Source of the DNA: Candidatus Hydrogenedentota bacterium
Lineage (GTDB): Bacteria; Hydrogenedentota; Hydrogenedentia; Hydrogenedentales; JAEUWI01
Length of the DNA: 64,000 nucleotides
NCBI GenBank assembly: GCA_016791475.1
Contig: JAEUWI010000035.1
Coordinates: 1-64,000 of the forward strand
Direction of reading: 5' to 3'
This document shows, piece after piece, positions 23,788 through 50,630 of the stretch. Below the pieces are notes generated by a model. The model was not told the DNA's origin and did not search any database. It was given only the letters and a program-made list of their open reading frames with translations. Within the stretch, counting starts at the first letter, position 1. Each line of letters begins with the position of its first letter. Both the position numbers and the translations under genes were made by a program.

Positions 23788-23838
23788 ATCGCTGGATTCG
23801 ACTGTCTGGTCCCGCACTACAGGATCATCACATTCAAT

Positions 23839-23973
23839 TTAAACCGTGAGGCTCTTCCGGCCCTTGCGGCGGCGGCTGCTGATTACGCGGCGACCGTTCT
23901 TGGTGGCCATGCGGGCACGGAAACCATGGGTGCGCTTCCGTTTAATGTTCGAAGGCTGGAAAGTGCGCTTCAC
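23839..23973 (-). CDS. rpmH: 50S ribosomal protein L34
   Basis: 44 aa from a GTG at 23973 with AAAAGGAG 6-13 bp upstream. The protein starts [19 protein letters not shown] and continues [20 protein letters not shown], a textbook L34 with its Lys/Arg richness. It is the first gene of the rpmH-rnpA-yidD-yidC-jag-mnmE cluster and structures the large ribosomal subunit. Confidence 0.97.
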
Positions 23974-24091
23974 GCTATGCTCCTTTTACATCTCAAATTC
24001 GTATTTTTAGACAACGGATAAGAAAACCGGGACCGTCCGGAAACAGACATAGTGCGCCCGTCCCAGTTCCAAAGATTGAGCTAAGGGCGTA

Positions 24092-24121
24092 ACTATACGA
24101 AATTAAGGGTTTTGATGTCAA
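24092..24121 (-). promoter_or_regulatory. rpmH: Sigma-70-like promoter of the rpmH cluster
   Basis: On the minus strand a perfect -35 TTGACA (24121-24116), 18 bp spacer and -10 TATAGT (24097-24092) give a leader of about 110 nt before the GTG of rpmH. The 303 bp between rpmH and the next gene was searched by eye for DnaA boxes. Only single partial matches were seen and no dnaA gene is present, so I do not call an origin. A possible opposing -10 (TATAGT, 24213-24218) precedes the plus-strand gene. Confidence 0.75.
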
Positions 24122-24276
24122 ACGGGAAACGGCGCTTCCCAGACCCTTCGTTCCACAGCCCGCCGCGCCAATGGCCCGGAATTTCGAATAGCGACACAAA
24201 ACCCGTACGCGGTATAGTATCAAGAGTCCGCCGTCGGGGCGGTCCATTGGCTTGACACCGGGCCGGGAGACCTGTG

Positions 24277-26007
24277 ATGCGTAGACGAGTATTCGTGGCC
24301 CTGCTTTGCTGGGCCTTGGTCCTGAGTGCCGGAGCGCTCGCGCCGGGCGATGCGGTCGGCGGCATGACGTTTAAAGACATTCGCTTTCTACCGAGGACGC
24401 TGGACGACTTTGGCGAACGAGCGGCCTTTGTATTCGCGTTCACCGCCACAGCCGATCCCGGTCGGGCGGCGCTGGATACACACCTGAAGTCGCTTCACGA
24501 ATCCTGGAGCGATAAAGGCGTCGAGATCGCCGCTGTCCACCCGTCGCCCGCCGACACCATCCCCACCATCGCACTCCATGGCATCGAGCGGGAACTACCC
24601 TTTACCCTCCTGGGTGATCCCGACGGTAGCGCCGCGAGAGCGCTGGGCGTCGAAAAGCTGGGCTCCTTCGTCATTCTCGACGGCCGGGACAAGCGGCTGC
24701 GCTATCGCGGCGACGGGGCGGGCGTCGCGGCGGCGCTGGATGCCGTCCTCGCGGGCGAAAGGGTCCCGGAAACCGAGCGGCCCGTGGACGGCGGAGCGAT
24801 CCCGGCCCGTGCCGTTCCCGATCCCGACGCGCCCGTCACCTACAGCGAGCACATTGCCCCGATCCTGAATGAGCATTGCGTGGCCTGCCACCGCCCGGGC
24901 CAGACCGCGCCCTTCGCCCTGCAGGACTATCGCCACGCGTCCGCGCGGGCGGACATGATCCTGGAGGTGGTCCTGGAGGAGCGCATGCCCCCGTGGTATG
25001 GCGCGCGGAAGCATGGGCCCTTCGTCAATGAACGTACCGTCACCGAAGCGGAGAAGACCCTCCTCGCCCAGTGGATCCGAGGAGATAAGCCCGAAGGGGA
25101 TCCCGCACTCGCCCCCGCCCCTTCTGTGTTTCCCGATTCCGAATGGGCCATCGGCGAGCCCGATCTCGTTCTCACGGCGAAGGACGTGGAGCAGATTCCA
25201 GCCGAGGGCTTTATCCCCTATCGCTATGTGACACTCCCCTATCAGTTCGCCGCCGACATCTGGGTGCAGGGTCTGGAAATCCTTCCGGGCAATTCCGAGG
25301 TGGTGCACCACGCCAATTTAATCTACACCCTGCCCGGCCAGCCTTATGACGAGCAGAACGGTTTCCTGACCGGCAAAGTACCCGGCGGCAATCCCGTGGA
25401 TCTTGCGCCGGGGGTCGGCATGATGATTCCGAAGGGGGCCGTGCTGACAATTCAGATCCACTACGTCACGACGGGCAAGCCCGAGACCGACCAGATGCGG
25501 GTCGGGATTCGTTATGCGGACGGGATCGTCGCCAAGCGCACCTTCCACCAGCGCATACGCCCGGAGACCATCGCTATTCCCCCGGGCGAGCCCTTCTACC
25601 GGATGAGTGCGGAGGAGACGATCCCCCACAACGCCACGGTGATAGCGCTCTTCACCCACATGCACACGCGAGGGCGGGACATGACCTTTTTCGCGGACTA
25701 TCCCGACGGCCACAGCGAGACTTTGCTGACCATCCCCAACTACAGCTTCGACTGGCAGCTCGCCTATCAGTACGCCCCCGGCACGAAGCGTTTTCCCAAG
25801 GGCACGAAGATCCGGACGGTCTCTCACTACGATAACTCCGCCTTCAATCCCTACAACCCGGATCCCACGATTGAAGTGCCCTACGGGGATCAGACTATCC
25901 ATGAGATGAATGACGGATACGTGTTTTATCTGGATGAGGAGGAGAATCTGAATTTGAACATCGATGGGGCGACGGGCCAGGTGAGGGAGAGCGTGGCGGG
26001 GAAATAG
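24277..26007 (+). CDS. Exported redoxin-cytochrome c-copper monooxygenase-like fusion protein
   Basis: 576 aa from the ATG at 24277 (GGGAGA upstream). Residues 1-25 are a signal peptide. Residues about 30-165 have a redoxin fold (FVFAFTATADP, then PFTLLGDPDGSAARALGV, then FVILDG) but no catalytic Cys where peroxiredoxins carry one. Residues 189-205 hold a c-type haem site, CVACH (Cys201-His205). From about 290, HHANLIYT and FTHMHTRGRDM resemble the copper ligands of type II ascorbate-dependent monooxygenases. This domain order recurs in planctomycete-like genomes with unknown role. A periplasmic redox function is inferred. Confidence 0.8.
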   Translation: MRRRVFVALLCWALVLSAGALAPGDAVGGMTFKDIRFLPRTLDDFGERAAFVFAFTATADPGRAALDTHLKSLHESWSDKGVEIAAVHPSPADTIPTIALHGIERELPFTLLGDPDGSAARALGVEKLGSFVILDGRDKRLRYRGDGAGVAAALDAVLAGERVPETERPVDGGAIPARAVPDPDAPVTYSEHIAPILNEHCVACHRPGQTAPFALQDYRHASARADMILEVVLEERMPPWYGARKHGPFVNERTVTEAEKTLLAQWIRGDKPEGDPALAPAPSVFPDSEWAIGEPDLVLTAKDVEQIPAEGFIPYRYVTLPYQFAADIWVQGLEILPGNSEVVHHANLIYTLPGQPYDEQNGFLTGKVPGGNPVDLAPGVGMMIPKGAVLTIQIHYVTTGKPETDQMRVGIRYADGIVAKRTFHQRIRPETIAIPPGEPFYRMSAEETIPHNATVIALFTHMHTRGRDMTFFADYPDGHSETLLTIPNYSFDWQLAYQYAPGTKRFPKGTKIRTVSHYDNSAFNPYNPDPTIEVPYGDQTIHEMNDGYVFYLDEEENLNLNIDGATGQVRESVAGK

Positions 26008-26038
26008 GGCTGCATGGAGGTATGGAGGGGGTGTGACC

Positions 26039-26467
26039 TCAGATGGTTACTCGGTGTTGTAACCGCTTAATTTCAATTTCAACCCTGTGTGTTCGATAGA
26101 ATCTATCTTTGCGCGCCTGGGTATCAGCGCTGAGGCTGGGTACCTTTGACGCCACCAGTATACACTTCTTCGTTGCGTCCCCGTGCCGCTCCCGGAAGTG
26201 CCCCAACGTCACCGCGAGTTGCTCAATACCGTGGTCGATTTTCGATCCTTTGAGTTCCAGATAAAACACCGATTGAAGCGGCACCGATATTTCCAGAATA
26301 TAGTCGCAACGCTTACTCGTTGAATCGCCCTTAAAGACGCACCGATCCACGGCAATTCGCCTCACGGTTTTCATGGCTGGATTATCGATGACCAGCTTCC
26401 TCTTCTCCTCCTCGGTCACGATGAGTCGGTCATTTCGAGTTTCTATGCATTCGTCCGGAATGTTCAC
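26039..26467 (-). CDS. Small PD-(D/E)XK-like nuclease candidate, partner of the ATPase
   Basis: 142 aa from a GTG at 26467 that overlaps the ATPase stop as GTGA. I do not recognise the family by name. The pattern CDYILEI, 15 residues, then YLELKGSKIDHG (D55, E71, K73) matches the D-x(n)-ExK core of PD-(D/E)XK nucleases. A Gln in a following helix (IEQLAVTLGHF) and a strand CILVASK fit the same fold. It has no signal peptide or membrane segment, and its base composition is AT-richer than neighbours. With the ATPase it resembles the ATPase-plus-small-nuclease layout of anti-phage systems such as Septu, whose nuclease however is HNH. Confidence 0.6.
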   Translation of the reverse strand: MNIPDECIETRNDRLIVTEEEKRKLVIDNPAMKTVRRIAVDRCVFKGDSTSKRCDYILEISVPLQSVFYLELKGSKIDHGIEQLAVTLGHFRERHGDATKKCILVASKVPSLSADTQARKDRFYRTHRVEIEIKRLQHRVTI

Positions 26468-27645
26468 GCGCTGACTTCCGAATACTTAAGCCGAAGCAGC
26501 CGGTCGAATTCCTCGGACAGGACTTCCGATACTCCGTCAATCACGTTCACACCAATCAGGCGGCTCTCCTCGTCCAGAATACTAACCAATTGGCCATCCT
26601 GAATGGTGTAAGCCCTTACCTCCTCGTAGCGAAGCTGGAAATCCGGGTCCACCGCATTGCTTTCTCCGAGCCTTTCCAGGACGTCACCCGCGATAATCAG
26701 GTTGTTCAACGCGGTCAGGATGTATGGGCTGTGGGTCGTGACGAGAAATCTCGTCTCGTAGCGACGCTGTAACAGGGACAGCAATCGGATAATATTCCGC
26801 TGCGAATCGGGAAACAAGTGTGCTTCCGGTTCCTCGATGATGACTGATAATTTGCGTAATCTTGTATCACGCGACGACAATGCCAAGAGCAGTGGCAATA
26901 CCGATTGCTGTCCCGATGAAGCATCGGACAAAATGACGGAGCGCCCTCCGACATCGATCCAGTCCTGCTCGTTGTCGCGTCGATAATTTCCCTTGAGAAC
27001 AAGATTGAACAGTACCTGCAACTGAACGCTATGAGGGTCGCTTTCACTCTCCAACGCGTCCAGGGCGTAAAACTGCCTGTAGGTTTCGAACTTGGCACCA
27101 AATTCCCACATGGTCGGATCGAGTCTTGGATTCTCGCGAAAGATTTTGAACGCGTTCTGCTGAAGGATCGACAGGAACGATCGACCAGCGGGGATAAACA
27201 GGGAGTCGGCCTGGTCATATTTTCCGCCCAGGGCAAAGTGCACCTGTCGTGCCCTCGCTCCATCATCGATCCTCGAAGTGACTTCCTCGACCGCTCCATC
27301 CAATCCGTCGAATTCCACTTCGATATCTTTTGCTCCTGAGTTCCGACGGATTCGGGCGCTGAAGTTACCGACAGCATAGTTGAGCTCAAAGGATCCGTCG
27401 CCCCACGACAACGGAGAGAAGTAAGAACAGAACTGCTCTGACCAGTACCCGTCAACCCAAACTTGACCACGAGACCCAAGCGCCAGTTCTAAAACGCTGG
27501 ACACAAAACTACGGCGAAAAAAATGTATCAGCTTCGCGAGCACGCTCTTTCCGGAAGCCTGGGGCCCGATGATTACGGTAAACTTGGCGACCTCCAAATC
27601 GGCTTGGCCGATACCAAGAAAATTCTTTGCTGTCAGTCGCTCCAT
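26464..27645 (-). CDS. OLD/AAA_15-like ATPase of a two-gene putative defence module
   Basis: 393 aa. Walker A is GPQASGKS at 27-34. The ABC-type signature is SDASSGQQSVLPLL (240-253) and Walker B is LSVIIEEPEAHLFPDSQ (266-282) with the EPEAH box of OLD-like ATPases. The H-loop is LVTTHSPYIL (301-310), and PAGRSF (152-157) is common in this group. No Toprim domain is fused, unlike OLD nucleases. It is followed with a 4-bp overlap by a small nuclease-like gene, so the pair is translationally coupled. The location between two cytochrome/lipoprotein genes on the opposite strand, and the AT-rich codons, suggest insertion of a mobile defence unit. Confidence 0.85.
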   Translation of the reverse strand: MERLTAKNFLGIGQADLEVAKFTVIIGPQASGKSVLAKLIHFFRRSFVSSVLELALGSRGQVWVDGYWSEQFCSYFSPLSWGDGSFELNYAVGNFSARIRRNSGAKDIEVEFDGLDGAVEEVTSRIDDGARARQVHFALGGKYDQADSLFIPAGRSFLSILQQNAFKIFRENPRLDPTMWEFGAKFETYRQFYALDALESESDPHSVQLQVLFNLVLKGNYRRDNEQDWIDVGGRSVILSDASSGQQSVLPLLLALSSRDTRLRKLSVIIEEPEAHLFPDSQRNIIRLLSLLQRRYETRFLVTTHSPYILTALNNLIIAGDVLERLGESNAVDPDFQLRYEEVRAYTIQDGQLVSILDEESRLIGVNVIDGVSEVLSEEFDRLLRLKYSEVSA

Positions 27646-27780
27646 TGTGATTCCAATCGGCTGTCCGGCGCTTGGGAGAACATCGACCCCGTGCGAATCT
27701 AGTCGAACCGGGTCGGGAATACGGTATAGTCTACCTGAGACCCAAGGGGAATTGAAGTACGAACTTGGAACCTCTCCGGG

Positions 27781-29367
27781 GTGATCTCAGTTGGGATGGG
27801 ATGGAGACATCCGGTGATCGAGACTGTTCACCCCCATAAAATATTGCGTTGTCATCGAAACAAACCATTTCACTGCTTCAATACAGGATGCTACCAACTG
27901 AAAATCTTCCGTACGCTGGGACCACGACAGGCCCTTCTCCGCCCCCCATCGATTGGCTGCCTTCTCTTGCTTACCGTCCTCGTCTCCGGCTGCCAGGCGA
28001 AAGGATGTGGTAATCCCTATGGCACGCCCGACCAGGCTACGGCCATTGAGGACGCCATGTATCAGGGCTCGATCGCGGACTGCGTCGCGGCGATTGCTGC
28101 GGCCCGGGAGACCCGTGCCGTCTGCGTCGGGTGCCCCGATGTGGAATTCGCCCGGGCCGCACCAGACACCACACCGCCCACGCTGGAAGACGTCGCGACG
28201 GCATGGAACACGGTGCATCTTCCGGGGCTGAACACCTACGGGGAGGATTGCCCTCCCATCGGTCGTGAATGGCCCGCCGCGGCGCTGGGTGGATACTATG
28301 CGCGTCTCGCGGGCTATCCCGCGCCGGAAGAGTTGCTCGCGCTGATCGCGAAACAAGTCGAAGGCGCACAATACGGTCCCGCCCACGCTCCGGAGCCGCT
28401 GGTTACCCATGTCGGCCTGTATGGCTATGCCGGACGCCTTGCTGAGAGAAGCGACCCTTGTTATCGGGGCGGCGTGGTTCGGGAGCGCGTGGAGGAAATC
28501 TGCGGCAAGCTCCCCCAGTTCTGCCCTGCCTATACGTCGGGGATCTGGGCGGGCGAGCGCTTTGTGGTGGCGGATTTTTCGGTGACGCCCCGGGCCTATG
28601 ATGGCGGCGCGGCCTACGACCACGGTTGGGCGGGCGCCCTGATGGTGGAGGCCTGGTTGCAAGCGGGCACGCCGGAAGACCGCGGTCTTTTCGAGGCCTC
28701 GGCCCGGCTGGCGGCCGCGTGGAGCGCGAAGGAGCCGGCGGTGCGCAACCACAACTACACGGCCAAGAATATCTGGCTCCTGGCGCAACTCTATGCCCTC
28801 ACCGGCGAGGCGCCCTTTCGAGATGCCCTGGTGGATCGGCTGGAACGCAATCTCAAGCCGGGCGTACTCATGGATCGCGACGCGGACGGTCTCGTGGACG
28901 GCATGGCCCATCAGCCCTTTGCCGAACTCAATCCGGTGGCCCGGACCCCCGGACGCATGTGGGACGGGCACAACAGCATTCTCTGGTATCAGGCGATGAA
29001 TACCTGGGCCATGACGGAAGCCTACTGCGCCTTCCGTGACAGAGGCGATGTGGAGGAGGCCGGGGAGTTGCGACCGTTTGCCGTCGCCATGCTGGACAAT
29101 ATGGCCTGGGAATTGACCCAGCTCGGGCCGGGTGTGGACATCGGCGAGGGCGCCCATCCCACGCCCTACGCCCTTCTGGTCGGCCTGAGGAAGATCGCCG
29201 CCGCGGAGGGGGAAACCCACGCGAACTGGGAAGCCGCCCTGGCCGTTCTATGGAACACGGGATATTTTGAGCGCTTCGAGGGCGGCCGAAGCACGGCCAA
29301 CTGCGGGTTGTATCTGCTCCACCTGAGCGGAGCGCCATTTGTCCCATTGGGAGCACGGGTTCCTTGA
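27781..29367 (+). CDS. Lipoprotein with six-hairpin (alpha/alpha toroid)-like glycosidase fold, unknown function
   Basis: Up to 528 aa; the reading frame opens at GTG 27781, but the true start is uncertain. The lipoprotein signal (GCLLLLTVLVSGC, Cys about residue 71) implies that translation begins nearer to residues 45-55. The body has repeated helical hairpins (YDHGWAGALMVEAWLQAG, NYTAKNIWLLAQLYALTGE, MWDGHNSILWYQAMNTWAM) like alpha/alpha-toroid glycosidases or unsaturated-uronate hydrolases, but I recognise no catalytic signature. It has several Cys in the first 70 residues after the lipobox. A surface or periplasmic carbohydrate role is inferred only. Confidence 0.7.
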   Translation: MISVGMGWRHPVIETVHPHKILRCHRNKPFHCFNTGCYQLKIFRTLGPRQALLRPPSIGCLLLLTVLVSGCQAKGCGNPYGTPDQATAIEDAMYQGSIADCVAAIAAARETRAVCVGCPDVEFARAAPDTTPPTLEDVATAWNTVHLPGLNTYGEDCPPIGREWPAAALGGYYARLAGYPAPEELLALIAKQVEGAQYGPAHAPEPLVTHVGLYGYAGRLAERSDPCYRGGVVRERVEEICGKLPQFCPAYTSGIWAGERFVVADFSVTPRAYDGGAAYDHGWAGALMVEAWLQAGTPEDRGLFEASARLAAAWSAKEPAVRNHNYTAKNIWLLAQLYALTGEAPFRDALVDRLERNLKPGVLMDRDADGLVDGMAHQPFAELNPVARTPGRMWDGHNSILWYQAMNTWAMTEAYCAFRDRGDVEEAGELRPFAVAMLDNMAWELTQLGPGVDIGEGAHPTPYALLVGLRKIAAAEGETHANWEAALAVLWNTGYFERFEGGRSTANCGLYLLHLSGAPFVPLGARVP

Positions 29368-29410
29368 TTCGACTGGACTGTCACGGGGCAACGCTGGCAT
29401 AATATATATT

Positions 29411-30700
29411 ATGAATACACTTTTACGAAACCTGATCCTCCTCGCCTGCGTCGCCCCCCGGGCCGCGCTTGCTCAGGACGCCTTTGAGGCGCCGCCGATC
29501 AGCTACAGCGAAACCGCACCGGACAATCCCATCGAGCGGCTGCGGACCGAAATTGAAACCGGGAGCGCCACGCTCGCCCAGGACGAGCACGGTTACCTCC
29601 GGCCGCTGTTAAAGCTGCTGGGGGTTCCCGAGTCCTCCCAGGTGCTGGTCTTTTCCAAGACTTCGCTCCAGATCAACAACATATCCCCCGCCGCGCCCCG
29701 CGCCATTTACTTCAATGACGACGTCTACATTGGTTCGGTGCAGCACAGCGATGTGGTGGAAATCTCCGCCGCCGACCCGAAGTTGGGAACGGTGTTCTAC
29801 ACCCTCGCTCCCGGCGCCGGGTCGCGGCCGGAGATTGTGCGCCAGCGGCACGAATGCCTTCAGTGCCACGGCGGGAGCATGACGCGGAATATCCCAGGGC
29901 ACATTGTGCGCTCCGTTTTTCCCGCGCAAGACGGTCAGCCCATCATGAAAGCGGGCTCCGCGCTCACGGATCACACCACGCCGATGGAAGAACGCTGGGG
30001 CGGCTGGTACATCACGGGGACCCATGGCAACGCCCGCCATCGGGGCAACCAGATCGCCACGGAAACGCCCTATGACGCGATTATCGACGTGGAAGCTGGG
30101 GCCAACCAGCCGACGCTGCCGCCACGGGTGAACACGGCGGATTACCTGACCCCGCACAGCGATATCGTGGCCATGCTGGTGCTGGAGCACCAGGCCCACA
30201 TGCACAACCTGATGACGCAAGCCAACTTCGAAACGCGCATGGCGCTCCATCGCCAGGCGGTGATGGACAAGATATTCGACCGGGCCCCGGATGAACTCAG
30301 CGAATCGAGCCAGCGGATCATCAAGAGCGCGGGCGACGCGCTGGTGGACTATATGATCTTCGCCCATGAAGAAGAGCTGAAGTCCCCAATTCAAGGGACC
30401 TCGGGCTTTGCGGAAGCATTTTCCGCGCTGGGTCCCCGGGACAGTCAGGGGCGCTCGCTGCGTGAGCTGGATTTGGAAAGCAGGCTGTTCACGTATCCCC
30501 TGAGCTACCTCATCTACTCGCCCCAGTTCGACGGCCTGCCCGGCGCCATGAAAGACTACGTCTACCAGCGCCTGTGGAACATCCTCACGGGGGCCGAGGC
30601 CACCCCGGATCTGCTCTTTCTCACCAATGCGAAGTGCCGGGCCATCCGGGAGATCCTGATCGATACGAAACCGGGGCTACCGGCGTATTGGGTCCGGTAA
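29411..30700 (+). CDS. Exported mono-haem cytochrome c-like protein
   Basis: 429 aa from the ATG at 29411. Residues 1-21 form a signal peptide ending ARAALAQ-type (PRAALAQ). One haem c site CLQCH lies at 149-153 in a stretch HECLQCHGGSMTRNIPGH. The remaining sequence (SALTDHTTPMEERWGGWYITG; VAMLVLEHQAHMHNLMTQ with several His) is conserved in planctomycete-like bacteria as a protein of unknown role. The gene follows the lipoprotein by 43 bp and may be in the same transcript. An electron-transfer or oxygen-sensing function in the periplasm is inferred. Confidence 0.78.
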   Translation: MNTLLRNLILLACVAPRAALAQDAFEAPPISYSETAPDNPIERLRTEIETGSATLAQDEHGYLRPLLKLLGVPESSQVLVFSKTSLQINNISPAAPRAIYFNDDVYIGSVQHSDVVEISAADPKLGTVFYTLAPGAGSRPEIVRQRHECLQCHGGSMTRNIPGHIVRSVFPAQDGQPIMKAGSALTDHTTPMEERWGGWYITGTHGNARHRGNQIATETPYDAIIDVEAGANQPTLPPRVNTADYLTPHSDIVAMLVLEHQAHMHNLMTQANFETRMALHRQAVMDKIFDRAPDELSESSQRIIKSAGDALVDYMIFAHEEELKSPIQGTSGFAEAFSALGPRDSQGRSLRELDLESRLFTYPLSYLIYSPQFDGLPGAMKDYVYQRLWNILTGAEATPDLLFLTNAKCRAIREILIDTKPGLPAYWVR

Positions 30701-43388: not shown

Positions 43389-43512
43389 AGTGGCGCAACG
43401 TGCGCATCGGTGCGAGCGGCAACGGGAGAGGACGAGGCGACCTCGCGCGGCAAAATTGTAATCTGAGACGGTCTGGGTGGCATGGGCTCCCATCAACGTT
43501 AGAGCGAACAGG

Positions 43513-46500
43513 ATGAGCCAAAAAGAGAGTGATATCGAGCGCAGTCTCATCGGAAAGCTCAAGGACTTAAAATACATCCACCGTCCCGAGATCCGGGACC
43601 GGGATGCGCTGGAGAAGAACTTCCGTCAAAAATTTGAGGCACTGAACCGCGTCCAACTGACCGATGCGGAATTTGCCCGCCTGCGCGATAGCATCGTCAG
43701 CGCCGACGTATTCCAGGCCGCGAAGACCCTGCGGGAATACGGCTATTTCGAGCGCGAAGACGGCACGCCCCTGCATTACACGCTGGTCAATATCAAAGAC
43801 TGGTGCAAGAATGACTTTGAAGTCGTCAACCAGCTCCGGATCAATACCAGCAACAGCCACCAACGCTACGATGTCATCCTGCTGATCAACGGCATTCCCG
43901 TGGTGCAGATCGAGCTGAAAAGCCTCGACGTTACCCCGCGCCGCGCCATGGAGCAGATCGTCTCCTACAAGAACGAGCCCGGCAACGGCTACGCCAACAC
44001 CCTCCTGTGTTTCATCCAAATCTTCGTCGTCAGCAACCGCGCCAACACGCGCTACTTCGCCAACAACCACGCCCAGCATTTCGCCTTCAATGCCGACGAG
44101 CGTTTTCTGCCTATTTACCAGTGGGCCGACGAGGACAACACCAAGGTCACCCACCTGGACGACTTCGCGGAGAAGTTCCTTCTCAAGTGCGCCCTCGGCC
44201 AGATGATCAGCCGTTACATGGTCCTCGTTGCGAGCGAGCAGAAGCTGATGATCATGCGGCCCTACCAGATCTATGCGGTCAAGGCCATCGTCGATTGCAT
44301 CCATCAGGACCGGGGCAACGGCTACATCTGGCACACCACCGGCAGCGGCAAAACCCTCACGTCCTTCAAGACCTCCACGCTGCTGAAAGACAACCCCGAT
44401 ATCGACAAATGCCTCTTCGTCGTGGACCGCAAGGATCTCGACCGCCAGACCCGCGAGGAGTTCAACCGATTCCAGGAAGGCTGCGTCGAGGAGAACACCA
44501 ACACCGAAACCCTCGTGCGACGCCTGCTCTCGGAGGACTACGCCGACAAGGTCATCGTCTGCACCATCCAGAAGCTCGGCCTGGCACTGGATGAGACCAG
44601 TAAGAAGGCACAGCAGCACCAGAAGAATGGAAAGGCCACCTACAAGGAGCGCCTGGCGCCCCTGCGCGACAAGCACATTGCCATCATCTTCGATGAGTGC
44701 CACCGCTCCCAGTTCGGCGACAACCACCAGGCCATTAAGGATTTCTTCCCAAGAGCCCAGCTCTTCGGCTTCACGGGTACGCCCATTTTCGACGCCAACG
44801 CCACCTACAAGCAGGTAGACGGCACCATCGGCTCGTACCGAACTACACGGGACATTTTCGAGAAGCAGCTACACGCCTACACCATCACCCACGCCATCGA
44901 CGATCAGAACGTACTCCGCTTTCACGTCGACTATTTCAAGGCGGCGGAGAACGAGGACGAGGGTGAGAGCAAGAAAAAGACGAAGGGCAAGCCCGACGAG
45001 GCGGCCAAACGGCGTGCCGTGGTCGATTCCATCCTGGAAAAGCACGAATCCGCCACCAACCACCGCCGCTTCAACGCCCTCATGGCCACCAGCTCCATCA
45101 ACGACGCCATCGCCTATTACAACCTGTTCAAGGAAGTACAGGCCCAGCGCCAGGTGGACGACCCAGAGTATGTGCCCCTCCACATCGCCGCCGTCTTCTC
45201 GCCGCCCGCCGAGGGTAACCCGGACGTCAAGCAGTTGCAGGAAGACCTGGCCCAGGAAAAGGCCGACAACCAGCAGGACCCGGAGGGCAAAAAGGCCGCC
45301 TTGGGGGTGATCATAAAGGACTACAACGCGCGGTACGGCACGAACCACGGCATCGGCGAATTCGACCTCTACTACCAGGACGTGCAGAAGCGCATCAAGG
45401 ACCAGCAATACCCCAACAGCGACTACGCCCACAAGAACAAGATCGACATTGTCATCGTGGTGGACATGCTGCTCACGGGATTCGATTCGAAGTTTCTGAA
45501 CACCCTCTATGTGGTTAAAAACCTCAAACACCACGGCCTGATCCAGGCCTTTTCCCGCACCAACCGCGTGCTCAACGACACCAAGCCCTACGGCAATATC
45601 CTCGACTTTCTCGGCCAGCGGAATGCCGTGGACGATGCCATCGCCCTCTTCTCCGGCGAGGACACGGGCCGCGCCAAGGAGATCTGGCTGGTGGACCCGG
45701 CCCCGCTGGTGATCGACAAGTACGAAGAGGCCGTCGCGGCCATGGCGCAGTTTCTCAATCGGAGCGGTGCGACGGACGAGGAGAAGAAACACCGGGTCTG
45801 TGAGCCGGAGGAGGTCTACAACCTCCAGGGCGACACCGCCCGCTTGGAGTTCGTCAAGCACTTCAAAGAGGTGCAGCGCTTCAAGACACAGCTCGACCAG
45901 TACACCGACCTGGACGAAACGCAAAAGGAGCGCATCGAAACGCTTTTGCCTGAAGAAAGGCTCCGCGAGCTACGTAGCTCCTACCTGGAAACCGCACAGC
46001 GCCTCAAGGCCCAGCAGGGCAAGGGCGGCGAGGACGCGGACAGCGCGGTGGACCAGCTCGATTTCGAATTCGTGCTCTTCTCCTCCGCCCTCATCGACTA
46101 CGACTACATCATGGGCCTCATCGCCCGCTACACCCAGGAGAAGCCCGGCAAACAGTCCATGAACCGCGCCCAACTGGTGAGCCTCCTCTCCGCCCACAGC
46201 AACCTCATGGACGAGCGCGACGATATCGTAGCCTATATCAACACCCTGCAGGCGGGCCAGCCCCTGAGCGAGCAAGCCATCCGCGAGGGCTACCAAACCT
46301 TCAAAGCCGAAAAAGCGGACAGCGAACTCCACGCACTGGCCGCGCGACATGGCCTGGCAGACGAAACCCTGAAGATCTTCGTCGGGGCTGTACTTGACCG
46401 CCTCATCTTCGACGGCGAACAACTCGGCGACCTCTTCGAATCGCTGGATCTCGGCTGGAAGGCCCGAAGCAAGGCGGAGCTGGCCCTGATGGAGGAATTG

Positions 46501-46563
46501 GCACCGTTCCTGAAGAAACAGGCCCAGGGACGCGAGATTTCCGGGTTGGCGGCCTATGAGTAA
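43513..46563 (+). CDS. hsdR: Type I restriction enzyme R subunit (HsdR)
   Basis: 1016 aa from the ATG at 43513. The N-terminal nuclease domain has HQRYDVILLINGIPVVQIELKS (D and ExK of the PD-(D/E)XK core). The SF2 motor has Walker A HTTGSGKTLTSFK near residues 274-286, IIFDECHRSQFG (DECH-type box) and FGFTGTPIF, then LLTGFDSKFLNTLYV and AFSRTNRVLND. It translocates DNA and cuts it when the methylation state is wrong. It leads the operon and its last 8 bp overlap hsdS, which is unusual because hsdM or hsdS more often comes first. Confidence 0.96.
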   Translation: MSQKESDIERSLIGKLKDLKYIHRPEIRDRDALEKNFRQKFEALNRVQLTDAEFARLRDSIVSADVFQAAKTLREYGYFEREDGTPLHYTLVNIKDWCKNDFEVVNQLRINTSNSHQRYDVILLINGIPVVQIELKSLDVTPRRAMEQIVSYKNEPGNGYANTLLCFIQIFVVSNRANTRYFANNHAQHFAFNADERFLPIYQWADEDNTKVTHLDDFAEKFLLKCALGQMISRYMVLVASEQKLMIMRPYQIYAVKAIVDCIHQDRGNGYIWHTTGSGKTLTSFKTSTLLKDNPDIDKCLFVVDRKDLDRQTREEFNRFQEGCVEENTNTETLVRRLLSEDYADKVIVCTIQKLGLALDETSKKAQQHQKNGKATYKERLAPLRDKHIAIIFDECHRSQFGDNHQAIKDFFPRAQLFGFTGTPIFDANATYKQVDGTIGSYRTTRDIFEKQLHAYTITHAIDDQNVLRFHVDYFKAAENEDEGESKKKTKGKPDEAAKRRAVVDSILEKHESATNHRRFNALMATSSINDAIAYYNLFKEVQAQRQVDDPEYVPLHIAAVFSPPAEGNPDVKQLQEDLAQEKADNQQDPEGKKAALGVIIKDYNARYGTNHGIGEFDLYYQDVQKRIKDQQYPNSDYAHKNKIDIVIVVDMLLTGFDSKFLNTLYVVKNLKHHGLIQAFSRTNRVLNDTKPYGNILDFLGQRNAVDDAIALFSGEDTGRAKEIWLVDPAPLVIDKYEEAVAAMAQFLNRSGATDEEKKHRVCEPEEVYNLQGDTARLEFVKHFKEVQRFKTQLDQYTDLDETQKERIETLLPEERLRELRSSYLETAQRLKAQQGKGGEDADSAVDQLDFEFVLFSSALIDYDYIMGLIARYTQEKPGKQSMNRAQLVSLLSAHSNLMDERDDIVAYINTLQAGQPLSEQAIREGYQTFKAEKADSELHALAARHGLADETLKIFVGAVLDRLIFDGEQLGDLFESLDLGWKARSKAELALMEELAPFLKKQAQGREISGLAAYE

Positions 46564-47887
46564 GTCGAAGGGGAGCGGGAAGAAGGGATTGTTGCCCAAG
46601 CTGCGCTTTCCTGAGTTTCGGGACGCGGGCGACTGGGCGAGCAAGTGCATGGGAATCTTATACAGTTTTCAGCCGACAAACTCGTATTCAAGGGAAAAAC
46701 TAAACTACATCGAAGGCGAAGTAAAGAACATTCACTACGGTGATATTCATACAAAGTTCGCTACATTATTCGATGTGACGCGAGAAAAAGTTCCGTTCAT
46801 CAACTTAAGCGAATCACTCGAAAAAGTGAACCCTGAGAGCTATTGCCTAAAAGGTGACATGGTCTTCGCGGACGCTTCCGAGGATTTGGATGACATTGGG
46901 AAAAGCATCGAAATCGTCAACACAAACAATGAGAAGATTTTGTCTGGCCTGCATACACTGATGGCTCGTCAACGGGATTCCGAGCTTGTCATCGGCTTTG
47001 GAGGTCATCTGTTCAAGTCTAGTTCGATCCGCAAACAAATCAAGAAAGAGTCACAAGGCACCAAGGTGCTGGGAATTTCCTCCGGCAGACTATCTAAAAT
47101 CAAAGTTTGCCTTCCACTGAACAAAGACGAACAGCAAAAGATCACCGATTGTCTCTCGTCCCTCGACGCGCTGATCGCCGCGCAGGCGGACAAGCTCGAC
47201 GCCCTCAAGGTCCATAAAAAAGGGCTGATGCAGCGCCTCTTCCCCCGCGAGGGCGAAACCGTCCCCGAACTGCGCTTTCCCGAGTTTCGGGATGGGGGGG
47301 AGTGGGAGGAGAAGACACTCGGATCTATTGCAGAGTTCCTCAAAGGCAAGGGTATCTCAAAGGCCGATATCCATTCAGACGGCAATCAGCCATGTATACG
47401 CTATGGGGAACTGTACACCCTCTATAGAGAGCGGATTGATACGGTGGTCTCCAATACTAACTTGTCGCCAGATGAGCTGTTCTTGAGTCATGCTGGCGAT
47501 GTGATCATACCTGCTTCCGGCGAGACCAAGATTGATATTGCGACGGCAGCTTGCGTGATACATCGTAATGTCGCACTGGGCAGCGATCTAAACATAATTC
47601 GCTCCAAACAGGATGGTGTCTTTCTGAGCTACTACTTGAACGGAACGCTTAGATTGGAAATTGCAAAAGTCGCTCAGGGTGACACAGTGGTTCATCTGTA
47701 CAAGAGCAATTTAGAGAAACTGAAAGTGGCAATCCCGTTACCGGAGGAGCAGCGAAGAGTCGCCGATTGCCTTTCCTCCCTCGACGCGCTGATCGACGCG
47801 CAGGCGGAGAAACTCGACGCCCTCAAGATCCACAAGCGCGGCCTGATGCAGCAGATCTTCCCCAGCCCGGAGGTGACGGACGCATGA
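46556..47887 (+). CDS. hsdS: Type I restriction enzyme specificity subunit (HsdS)
   Basis: 443 aa with two target-recognition domains, one in residues about 20-190 and one about 240-400. Each domain is preceded by LRFPEFRD and followed by a coiled-coil conserved region: CLSSLDALIAAQADKLDALK and CLSSLDALIDAQAEKLDALK, ending KGLMQRLFP / RGLMQQIFP. The two halves are thus pseudo-dimeric, and the flanking DNA is repeated (about 46600 and 47270; about 47150 and 47770). The recognition domains are much AT-richer than the conserved parts, suggesting domain exchange. The DNA target cannot be read from sequence. The stop overlaps the next gene as ATGA. Confidence 0.95.
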   Translation: MSKSKGSGKKGLLPKLRFPEFRDAGDWASKCMGILYSFQPTNSYSREKLNYIEGEVKNIHYGDIHTKFATLFDVTREKVPFINLSESLEKVNPESYCLKGDMVFADASEDLDDIGKSIEIVNTNNEKILSGLHTLMARQRDSELVIGFGGHLFKSSSIRKQIKKESQGTKVLGISSGRLSKIKVCLPLNKDEQQKITDCLSSLDALIAAQADKLDALKVHKKGLMQRLFPREGETVPELRFPEFRDGGEWEEKTLGSIAEFLKGKGISKADIHSDGNQPCIRYGELYTLYRERIDTVVSNTNLSPDELFLSHAGDVIIPASGETKIDIATAACVIHRNVALGSDLNIIRSKQDGVFLSYYLNGTLRLEIAKVAQGDTVVHLYKSNLEKLKVAIPLPEEQRRVADCLSSLDALIDAQAEKLDALKIHKRGLMQQIFPSPEVTDA

Positions 47888-48999
47888 GCGGCACGCCAAC
47901 CGTCTACAACTACCCCAATCTCCGCAGAGTCGTCGAACGGTTGAGGGATGACTTTTCCAGTGGCAATTGCGACTTCGTATTGCTCTACGCCTATAATCGC
48001 ACAGGAAAGACTCGACTTTCCATGGAATTCAAGGAGTATAGAAAGCGCAAACGGGAAAATGGTCGAGACACACTTTATTTCAACGCCTTCACCGAGGACC
48101 TATTCTCGTGGGACAATGATTTGGAGAACGACGCCAGACGAGCACTCCAGATCAATTCAAACTCAAAGTTCTTTGCCGGATTTAAGGATCTCGCGCTGGA
48201 AGAGCGAATTTTTGCCTACCTGAGTCGATATGCCACCTTCAACTTCAAAATCGACTATGAAAACTGGAATGTCGTCTTTAGCCAGGAAATAGCAAATCCG
48301 AAATTCAAGCCGGGGTCAAAAGAGCCCGAAACGATCACAGAAAGTAACATAAAAATTTCGAGAGGGGAAGAGAATCTATTTATTTGGTGTGTTTATCTGG
48401 CCATATCTGAACTCGCAATCGATGAGGCGAGCGCATACGACTGGGTAAAATACTTCTATATAGACGACCCCATCACATCCCTGGACGACAATAATGCTAT
48501 CGCCGTTGCGACAGATCTAGCGAATTTACTAAGACGAGCCAAGGGTAAAATCAAGACTGTAATATCCTCCCACCATGGCCTGTTTTTCAATGTGATGTTC
48601 AATGAACTGAAGAAGTCTTCACACAGATCTTATTTTATTCACCGGAAGCCCACGGAGAATACTTATACCCTGAGGGCTACCGATGAGACTCCGTTTTTTC
48701 ATCATGTGGCCACTTTAAGCGAGTTGAAAAAAGCGTCGGAAAGCGGGGAACTTTACACGTATCACTTTAACGCGCTTCGCAGCATTTTGGAGAAGACCGC
48801 CGCGTTCCATGGCCAAGACGACTTCTCTTTCTGTTTGGATAGTACAGACGAAGCGCTGTATTCCCGCGCCTTGAATCTTCTCAGCCATGGTAAAGCCTAC
48901 CCCCTCTATCAACCTGTCCAGATGCTCGAAGACAACAAGAAACTTTTCAACGACATCTTACAGGCATTCCTGAATCGCTTTGAATTCGGCATGCTGTGA
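47884..48999 (+). CDS. PrrC/AAA_13-like ATPase, candidate anticodon nuclease guarding the restriction system
   Basis: 371 aa. A P-loop in the form AYNRTGKTRLS (36-46, first Gly replaced by Ala), a signature-like KISRGEENLFI (157-167), Walker B FYIDDPITSLDDNN (191-204) and SSHH (228-231) give an ABC-type ATPase of the PrrC/RloC class. The C-terminal part has Arg299, Glu303 and His335. The same R-x3-E-x31-H spacing has been proposed as the catalytic triad of E. coli PrrC (R320, E324, H356; recalled from the literature). PrrC cuts tRNA-Lys when the type I enzyme is inhibited by phage. The gene is AT-rich and coupled to hsdS by a 4-bp overlap. Another toxin-like activity is possible. Confidence 0.68.
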   Translation: MSGTPTVYNYPNLRRVVERLRDDFSSGNCDFVLLYAYNRTGKTRLSMEFKEYRKRKRENGRDTLYFNAFTEDLFSWDNDLENDARRALQINSNSKFFAGFKDLALEERIFAYLSRYATFNFKIDYENWNVVFSQEIANPKFKPGSKEPETITESNIKISRGEENLFIWCVYLAISELAIDEASAYDWVKYFYIDDPITSLDDNNAIAVATDLANLLRRAKGKIKTVISSHHGLFFNVMFNELKKSSHRSYFIHRKPTENTYTLRATDETPFFHHVATLSELKKASESGELYTYHFNALRSILEKTAAFHGQDDFSFCLDSTDEALYSRALNLLSHGKAYPLYQPVQMLEDNKKLFNDILQAFLNRFEFGML

Positions 49000-49025
49000 A
49001 CTGCCTCAGAAGGGTGTGATTGACG

Positions 49026-50630
49026 ATGACCAAAGAACAACGCAACCAACTGGGCAAGACCCTGTGGGCGATTGCGGATCAGCTTCGCGGCGCGATGAAC
49101 GCGGACGACTTCCGCGACTATATGCTGTCCTTTCTATTCCTGCGCTACCTCTCCGATAACTACGAGGCGGCCGCCCAGAAAGAACTGAAGGGAGAGTATC
49201 CGAAGCTGCCCGAGGGTGACCGGCGCGCGCCGCTGACCGTGTGGTATGAAAACAATGCCGCCGACGCAGCCGATTTTGAGACACAGATCCGCCGCAAAAC
49301 GCACTACGTCATCCAGCCGGACTACCTCTGGAGCAGCATCGCGGAGCGGGCCCGAACGCAGGACGCCGAACTACTGCAAACGCTGGAGCGGGGCTTCAAG
49401 TACATCGAAAATGAGTCCTTTGCCAGCACCTTTCAGGGCCTCTTCTCGGAGATCAATCTGAATTCTGAAAAGCTGGGCAAGACACCGGCCGACCGTAACA
49501 AGAAGCTTTGCACCATTGTCACGACCATCGCCGAGAAGATCGCGGAGTTCTCCACCGACAGCGATATCCTGGGCGACGCCTATGAGTACCTCATCGGCCA
49601 GTTCGCCGCCGGATCCGGCAAAAAGGCGGGCGAGTTCTACACGCCGCAGTCGGTTTCCACCATCCTGTCGCGCATTGTAACCCTGGACGGCCAGGACCCG
49701 CGCTCCGGCAAAAAGAAGAAGCTCAACCGCGTGCTCGACTTTGCGTGCGGCTCCGGCTCCCTGCTGTTGAACGTGCGCAATCAGATGGGCAAGGACGGCA
49801 TCGGCAAGATCTACGGCCAGGAGAAGAACATCACGACCTACAACCTGGCGCGGATGAACCTGCTGCTGCACGGCGTGAAGGATACCGAGTTTCACATCCA
49901 CCACGGCGACACGCTTTTCAACGACTGGCCACTGCTCAACGAGATGAACCCAGCCAAAAAGCTGCAATGCGATGCGGTAGTGGCCAATCCGCCCTTCAGC
50001 TACCGCTGGGAACCCACCGATGCGCTGGGCGATGATTTCCGTTTCAAGAGCTATGGCCTGGCCCCGAAATCGGCGGCGGACTTCGCTTTCCTGCTCCACG
50101 GCTTTCACTTCCTGAGCGACGAAGGCACCATGGCGATCATCCTGCCCCACGGCGTCCTCTTCCGGGGTGGTGTGGAGAGCCGCATCCGCACCAAGCTGCT
50201 CAAAGACGGGCACATCGACACGGTAATCGGCCTGCCCGCCAACCTCTTCTTTTCCACCGGTATCCCGGTGTGCATTCTTGTGCTGAAAAAGTGCAAGAAA
50301 CCCGACGACGTGCTCTTCATCAACGCCAGCGAGCATTTCGAAAAAGGCAAGCGCCAGAATGTCCTGTTGCCCAAGCACATCGACAAGATCGTCGACTTCT
50401 ACCAGCACCGGAAAGAGGAGGACCGCTTCGCGCGCCGGGTCGGTATGGAGGAGATTGAGAAGAACGACTACAACCTCAATATCTCCCGCTATGTCAGCAC
50501 CGCCGAAGCCGAGCCGGAGATCGATCTGGCGGAAGTTCACAAGAACTTGTGCGATATTGAAAAGCGCATCGCCGAGGCGAGGGCTACGCACAACAATTTC
50601 ATGAAGGAACTGGGATTGCCACCGATTTGA
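49026..50630 (+). CDS. hsdM: Type I restriction enzyme M subunit (HsdM)
   Basis: 534 aa from the ATG at 49026; an upstream TTG at 49020 is possible. The N-terminal HsdM_N helical domain (GKTLWAIADQLRGAMNADDFRDYML) is followed by the SAM-binding motif I VLDFACGSGSLLLNV near residues 236-250. The catalytic NPPF is at about 321-324 (ANPPFSYRW), the adenine-N6 methyltransferase signature. It modifies host DNA with two HsdM per HsdS. Here it is the last gene of hsdR-hsdS-X-hsdM, 26 bp after the PrrC-like gene, so a defect upstream could affect methylation. Confidence 0.96.
   Translation: MTKEQRNQLGKTLWAIADQLRGAMNADDFRDYMLSFLFLRYLSDNYEAAAQKELKGEYPKLPEGDRRAPLTVWYENNAADAADFETQIRRKTHYVIQPDYLWSSIAERARTQDAELLQTLERGFKYIENESFASTFQGLFSEINLNSEKLGKTPADRNKKLCTIVTTIAEKIAEFSTDSDILGDAYEYLIGQFAAGSGKKAGEFYTPQSVSTILSRIVTLDGQDPRSGKKKKLNRVLDFACGSGSLLLNVRNQMGKDGIGKIYGQEKNITTYNLARMNLLLHGVKDTEFHIHHGDTLFNDWPLLNEMNPAKKLQCDAVVANPPFSYRWEPTDALGDDFRFKSYGLAPKSAADFAFLLHGFHFLSDEGTMAIILPHGVLFRGGVESRIRTKLLKDGHIDTVIGLPANLFFSTGIPVCILVLKKCKKPDDVLFINASEHFEKGKRQNVLLPKHIDKIVDFYQHRKEEDRFARRVGMEEIEKNDYNLNISRYVSTAEAEPEIDLAEVHKNLCDIEKRIAEARATHNNFMKELGLPPI

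Follow-up and report, generated by a model that had tools for sequence, protein, structure and literature searches.

A WonAB-type ATPase–nuclease gene pair predicted in a Hydrogenedentota genome

Introduction

In a contig of a Candidatus Hydrogenedentota bacterium (positions 1 to 64,000 of JAEUWI010000035.1, hereafter the window) an ABC ATPase gene overlaps the gene of a 142-amino-acid protein with a nuclease-like motif, which raises the question of what the two proteins may do together and whether a pair of this kind already has a name. A sequence-only reading of the locus had proposed a two-gene ATPase–nuclease module, with a layout like that of Septu and a different class of nuclease, and had found no named system with this composition.

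WonAB is a characterised anti-phage system of the Vibrio cholerae WASA-1 prophage, comprising WonA, an OLD-type ABC ATPase, and WonB, a predicted PD-(D/E)xK nuclease of ~16 kDa (16.1 kDa) (PMC12137116). Protection needs both proteins and both active sites, with K34, R182, E300 and H333 of WonA and K71 of WonB being essential; and WonB is toxic on overproduction only if WonA and its ATPase activity are present (PMC12137116). The system works by abortive infection; since translation stops while host genomic DNA remains intact, the nuclease is suspected of acting on rRNA or tRNA (PMC12137116). WonAB is also covered in a review (PMC12409358). As cited in both articles, an 'OLD-ABC ATPase + novel REase' class had been predicted by Krishnan et al. 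(2020), and according to the WonAB authors this class takes in all of their WonAB homologues (PMC12137116).

Results

The locus and its ATPase

Both open reading frames lie exactly where the sequence-only reading had placed them, in coordinates and in strand, and share the GTGA that it had described as a 4-bp overlap (Table 1); this suggests translational coupling, and a short overlap or near-abutment of both genes is typical of the family. The antisense placement between two unrelated genes was confirmed, and all three of the motifs that had been named (GPQASGKS, EEPEAH and D55-x15-E71-x-K73) are present in the two frames. The pair had further been called AT-rich, which is correct relative to the window (52.1% GC against 61%, within the lowest ~4% of equal-size windows) but not in absolute terms.

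Table 1. Coordinates of the pair, its flanking genes and the nearby restriction-modification locus in the window
Feature	Position	Strand	Details
WonA-like OLD-family ABC ATPase (PDC-M29A-like)	26464..27645	(-)	393 aa, ATG start
WonB-like PD-(D/E)XK predicted nuclease (PDC-M29B-like)	26039..26467	(-)	142 aa, GTG start
4-bp GTGA overlap, ATPase stop / nuclease start	26464..26467	(-)	
Flanking gene	24274-26007	(+)	unrelated to pair
Flanking gene	27781-29367	(+)	unrelated to pair
Type I restriction-modification locus	43477-50630	(+)	
HsdR	43477-46563	(+)	
HsdS	46556-47887	(+)	
PrrC-like gene	within 47767-48999	(+)	PADLOC PrrC 2e-132
HsdM	49020-50630	(+)	

The Walker A motif of the window ATPase contains K33 and its Walker B motif E271/E272; these are joined by PAGR (R155), the signature SSGQQ (amino acids 243–247), an H-loop TTHSPY (H305) and a conserved C-terminal extension (~311–393). 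The protein ends ~85 amino acids past the H-loop. G27, G32, K33, S34, P152-A153-x-R155, SSGQQ, EEPEAH and TTHSPY are invariant in 19 ATPase relatives. The domain matches above cut-off were AAA_21 and AAA_15, and domain profile searches found no match to the Toprim family in either protein of the pair; together with the motifs, this bears out the earlier description of an OLD-like ATPase without Toprim. The predicted model of the ATPase is confident (pLDDT 85.2) and its closest solved structures in the PDB are the PtuA proteins of retron and Septu PtuAB (E ~1e-10), followed by RecN and Rad50.

The small protein as a predicted nuclease

The D-x15-E-x-K pattern occurred in 5% of shuffles of the 142-amino-acid protein and a looser form, D-x(8-22)-[DE]-x-K, in 68%; as stand-alone evidence of a nuclease the pattern was therefore dropped, as it is not rare by chance. 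The motif is nonetheless credible since its residues are invariant across 19 aligned nuclease relatives, along with N29, D41, L72, G74 and Q83, in an alignment whose columns average 35% identity and whose members share only about 30% on average. The putative active site comprises D55, E71, K73 and Q83. In the AlphaFold2 model (pLDDT 92.9, pTM 0.88) D55 starts a strand at residues 56–60, E71 and K73 lie in a strand at 66–73, a helix at 77–90 carries Q83 and a further strand follows at 99–106, so that the modelled order of strands and helix is that of PD-(D/E)XK enzymes.

Database comparisons of the small protein gave little: there was no curated match in Pfam or NCBIfam, phmmer and the family profile yielded only sub-threshold matches in the PDB, and Foldseek found no match below 0.001 in either the PDB (best E 0.08) or a viral structure library. 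Prominent among the best Foldseek matches, individually weak and all with E >0.05, were Mus81, Nt.BspD6I (probability 0.90), NucS/EndoMS, Can2/Card1, BstEII and PspGI, all of which we take to be of the PD-(D/E)XK class. A separate likeness to NucS was also weak (E 0.013), and the best PDB match of the nuclease family profile was 4ic1 (E 0.65), presumably Cas4 SSO0001, in which the catalytic residues appear to coincide with the aligned D, E and K. Because the Foldseek E-values are poor, we base the fold call on topology, motif and conservation, from which the protein is a predicted PD-(D/E)XK-like nuclease; the earlier proposal of such a small nuclease is supported by the invariant residues, the confident model and the class-consistent if weak structure matches.

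Distribution and linkage of the pair

Within the phylum, relatives were found in 3/68 genomes, the source genome included, and relatives of the pair in one of three other genomes of the same genus; G035, a genome of that genus, has the orthologues of the flanking genes on separate contigs. Further relatives occur in a Rhodobacteraceae genome, in a genome of Pyrinomonadaceae (Acidobacteriota), in Escherichia coli and in various prophages. A nuclease relative was present in 6/398 genomes drawn from the same phylum as the Rhodobacteraceae genome (centre genome included), and one viral-contig relative in 10/5426 complete E. coli genomes. Neither protein had a match in plasmids, and the matches in phage records were two unannotated human-gut fragments.

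When viral contigs were searched with the ATPase alone, all 13 of the full-length close relatives had the nuclease directly downstream (13/13), on which ground we call the pair inseparable; more distant ATPases in viral contigs were without it. Relatives in four viral contigs were found by the nuclease search, and the genome loci examined, which had been found via the nuclease, carry the ATPase upstream. ATPase and nuclease distances are correlated (r 0.785, a value reached by 0/5000 permutations). The ATPase and nuclease form a conserved module and not a chance adjacency, as the sequence-only reading had claimed. At L024 (6683-8393), the ATPase frame of 366 amino acids stops before the conserved C-terminal extension, 187 bp from the nuclease start, and is possibly truncated or frameshifted.

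Relation to WonAB and other known systems

The best PADLOC matches of the window pair were PDC-M29A for the ATPase (6.3e-27) and PDC-M29B for the nuclease (1.1e-12). PDC-M29 is a profile name only, which no paper found in our literature search uses. PDC-M29A matched 19/19 ATPases of the family and PDC-M29B (PDLC04563) 10/19 nucleases; since about half of the latter escape the M29B models, the family is broad, with members that may have different targets or triggers.

In WonAB, as in the window pair, an OLD-type ABC ATPase that lacks Toprim precedes a PD-(D/E)xK nuclease of ~16 kDa, the window protein having a predicted mass of 16.4 kDa against 16.1 kDa. The domain composition is also that of the computationally defined OLD-ABC ATPase + novel REase operons, as that class is cited in the WonAB literature. 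K34, R182, E300 and H333 of WonA were assigned to K33, R155, E272 and H305 of the window ATPase, all invariant in the family, by motifs and spacing rather than by direct alignment; the spacing from E to H is 33 in both proteins, and WonB K71 was assigned to K73. The published WonAB qPCR primers translate to PQANGK and PRYSWE (WonA) and CDWILS (WonB), for which the window has PQASGK, SPLSWG and CDYILE, and a viral relative (L030) PRYGWE; in this comparison, confined to the primer-encoded hexapeptides, the WonAB peptides are recognisable motifs of the family alignments. The primers themselves had no match in the loci examined or in viral contigs. The two systems differ in their hosts, a V. cholerae prophage as opposed to a chromosome stretch of the distant phylum Hydrogenedentota.

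Taken together, sequence, structural models and analogy make it very probable that the window pair is a WonAB-type abortive-infection system. It belongs to an already known kind of defence system, WonAB, and is not a new system: the functional guess was a good one, and the view that no named system has this composition was wrong, given that PADLOC-DB lists PDC-M29A/B and that WonAB has the same architecture. The sequence-only reading had made its own novelty depend on the pair being unlisted, and as PADLOC-DB already lists it the claim falls.

Other systems share one part of the pair. PD-T4-4, a similar ATPase–nuclease operon discussed as a relative of WonAB (PMC12137116), matched the window ATPase through its A-type model (PD-T4-4_A, 3e-18), more weakly than PDC-M29A, but PADLOC gave no match of PD-T4-4_B to the small protein, and membership was rejected with only the A-type model present. 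OLD, Gabija (GajA) and PARIS (AriA/AriB) share with the pair an ABC ATPase core of the OLD family (AriA model 1e-21), but use Toprim-type nucleases; these readings were ruled out, there being no Toprim in either window protein.

Genomic setting

The nearest neighbours of the window pair are metabolic and housekeeping genes, with YidC and the RNase P protein near it on one side and a tyrosine recombinase of the phage-integrase family, possibly XerC/D, on the other; neither a defence island around the pair nor recognised prophage genes adjoining it were seen. About 16 kb from the pair is a type I restriction-modification locus that includes a PrrC-like gene (Table 1). PrrC is an anticodon nuclease that guards type I restriction-modification systems, and here the PrrC-like gene falls within the stretch of locally lowest GC.

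Neighbours of relatives were scanned with family tallies covering the first 25, and ten proteins were re-scanned singly. In the Rhodobacteraceae locus (L018:8794-15302) the pair is encoded on the strand opposite to a BREX system, directly next to its BrxL (687 aa) and PglZ (836 aa). Viral-contig relatives stand among portal, terminase, scaffold and replication genes, and in two of them (L023:4219-9765 and L025:4677-11630) the pair appears to lie within a phage structural gene block as prophage cargo; in L023 it follows a portal-like gene and in L025 it is among Mu-like genes. Near pairs in other viral contigs are a PifA-like protein (L028:2466-4973, 2.5e-82) and the PADLOC candidate PDC-S45 (L030:3288-4115, 2.7e-101). 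The patchy presence, the lower GC and the prophage-borne or BREX-adjacent relatives amount to the pattern of a mobile accessory element, and the viral-contig and BREX settings together with the patchy presence in the genus suit mobile defence cargo.

Discussion

By analogy with WonAB, the WonA-like ATPase would dimerise around ATP and serve as both sensor and gate, with the small WonB-like nuclease held on the C-terminal extensions of the ATPase; a cue from infection, relayed by the ATPase, would license the nuclease to attack a component of the translation machinery, with rRNA or tRNA suspected, and growth of the cell would halt before phage particles are assembled. That the window proteins form a complex and act in defence, and what their trigger and nucleic-acid target would be, we infer from this analogy.

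We considered that the pair may belong to a sister branch within the broad OLD-ABC ATPase + novel REase class, one whose nuclease cuts phage or host DNA, by restriction or suicide, and spares translation. The low identity among the nucleases and the partial coverage by the M29B models would allow for such a branch, and DNA nucleases (Mus81, Nt.BspD6I and NucS/EndoMS) are among the nearest structural analogues, with the presumed Cas4 as best profile match; however, the residues found essential by mutation in WonAB are shared, and WonB, for which a PD-(D/E)xK fold, usually that of a DNase, is likewise predicted, leaves genomic DNA intact when overproduced (PMC12137116). We regard DNA cutting as possible but doubtful. 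A plain toxin–antitoxin pair, with the ATPase as antitoxin only, would account for the overlapping two-gene operon, for the match to AAA_21 ('putative AbiEii toxin') and for the toxicity of overproduced WonB. AAA_21, though, names a broad ABC-ATPase domain, and WonA is no simple neutraliser because WonB is toxic only in the presence of ATPase-active WonA (PMC12137116); the simple form of this reading was ruled out on that dependence and we hold it to be very unlikely.

Septu or a retron PtuAB shares the logic of an ABC ATPase with a small nuclease, and the sequence-only reading was right that the layout is Septu-like and the nuclease of another class: among solved folds PtuA comes closest to the window ATPase, which PtuA PADLOC models also match (3e-16). 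That the small protein stands in for PtuB, or that a reverse transcriptase and non-coding RNA are needed, is scarcely credible all the same, as PtuB is an HNH nuclease and the PD-(D/E)XK-like partner has no HNH or PtuB profile match, PDC-M29A scores far better than PtuA on the ATPase, and the surroundings contain no retron parts, with no Rfam match in 23800-30000 and none of the neighbouring genes recognised as a reverse transcriptase. Septu and retron readings were ruled out on the missing HNH/PtuB and Rfam matches. Equally, an ABC ATPase of RecN/Rad50 fold, a weakly NucS-like partner and housekeeping neighbours might suggest a RecF-, SbcCD- or NucS-like DNA repair pair with no role in defence, but its patchiness in genus and phylum, its GC below that of the surroundings and the repeated occurrence of relatives in prophages or next to BREX render this highly improbable.

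The assignment as WonAB-type extends the type to Hydrogenedentota, a little-studied environmental lineage, in a module that is spread across distant phyla and also carried by prophages, its catalytic residues being kept; and the 19-member alignment with a confident nuclease model should make it easier to test the RNA target of WonAB and the cue that the ATPase senses. It is unlikely, in our estimation, that the Hydrogenedentota pairs form a subfamily with a trigger or nucleic-acid target unlike those of V. cholerae WonAB; alongside this reading we note that the insert of the window ATPase is shorter than that of WonA, with the arginine at 155 and not at 182. The subfamily would include three divergent copies of the pair (L003, L004 and L005, on contigs C91, C912 and C1028) which were found in one genome, G043, a Hydrogenedentota metagenome-assembled genome of 8.3 Mb with 7% contamination.
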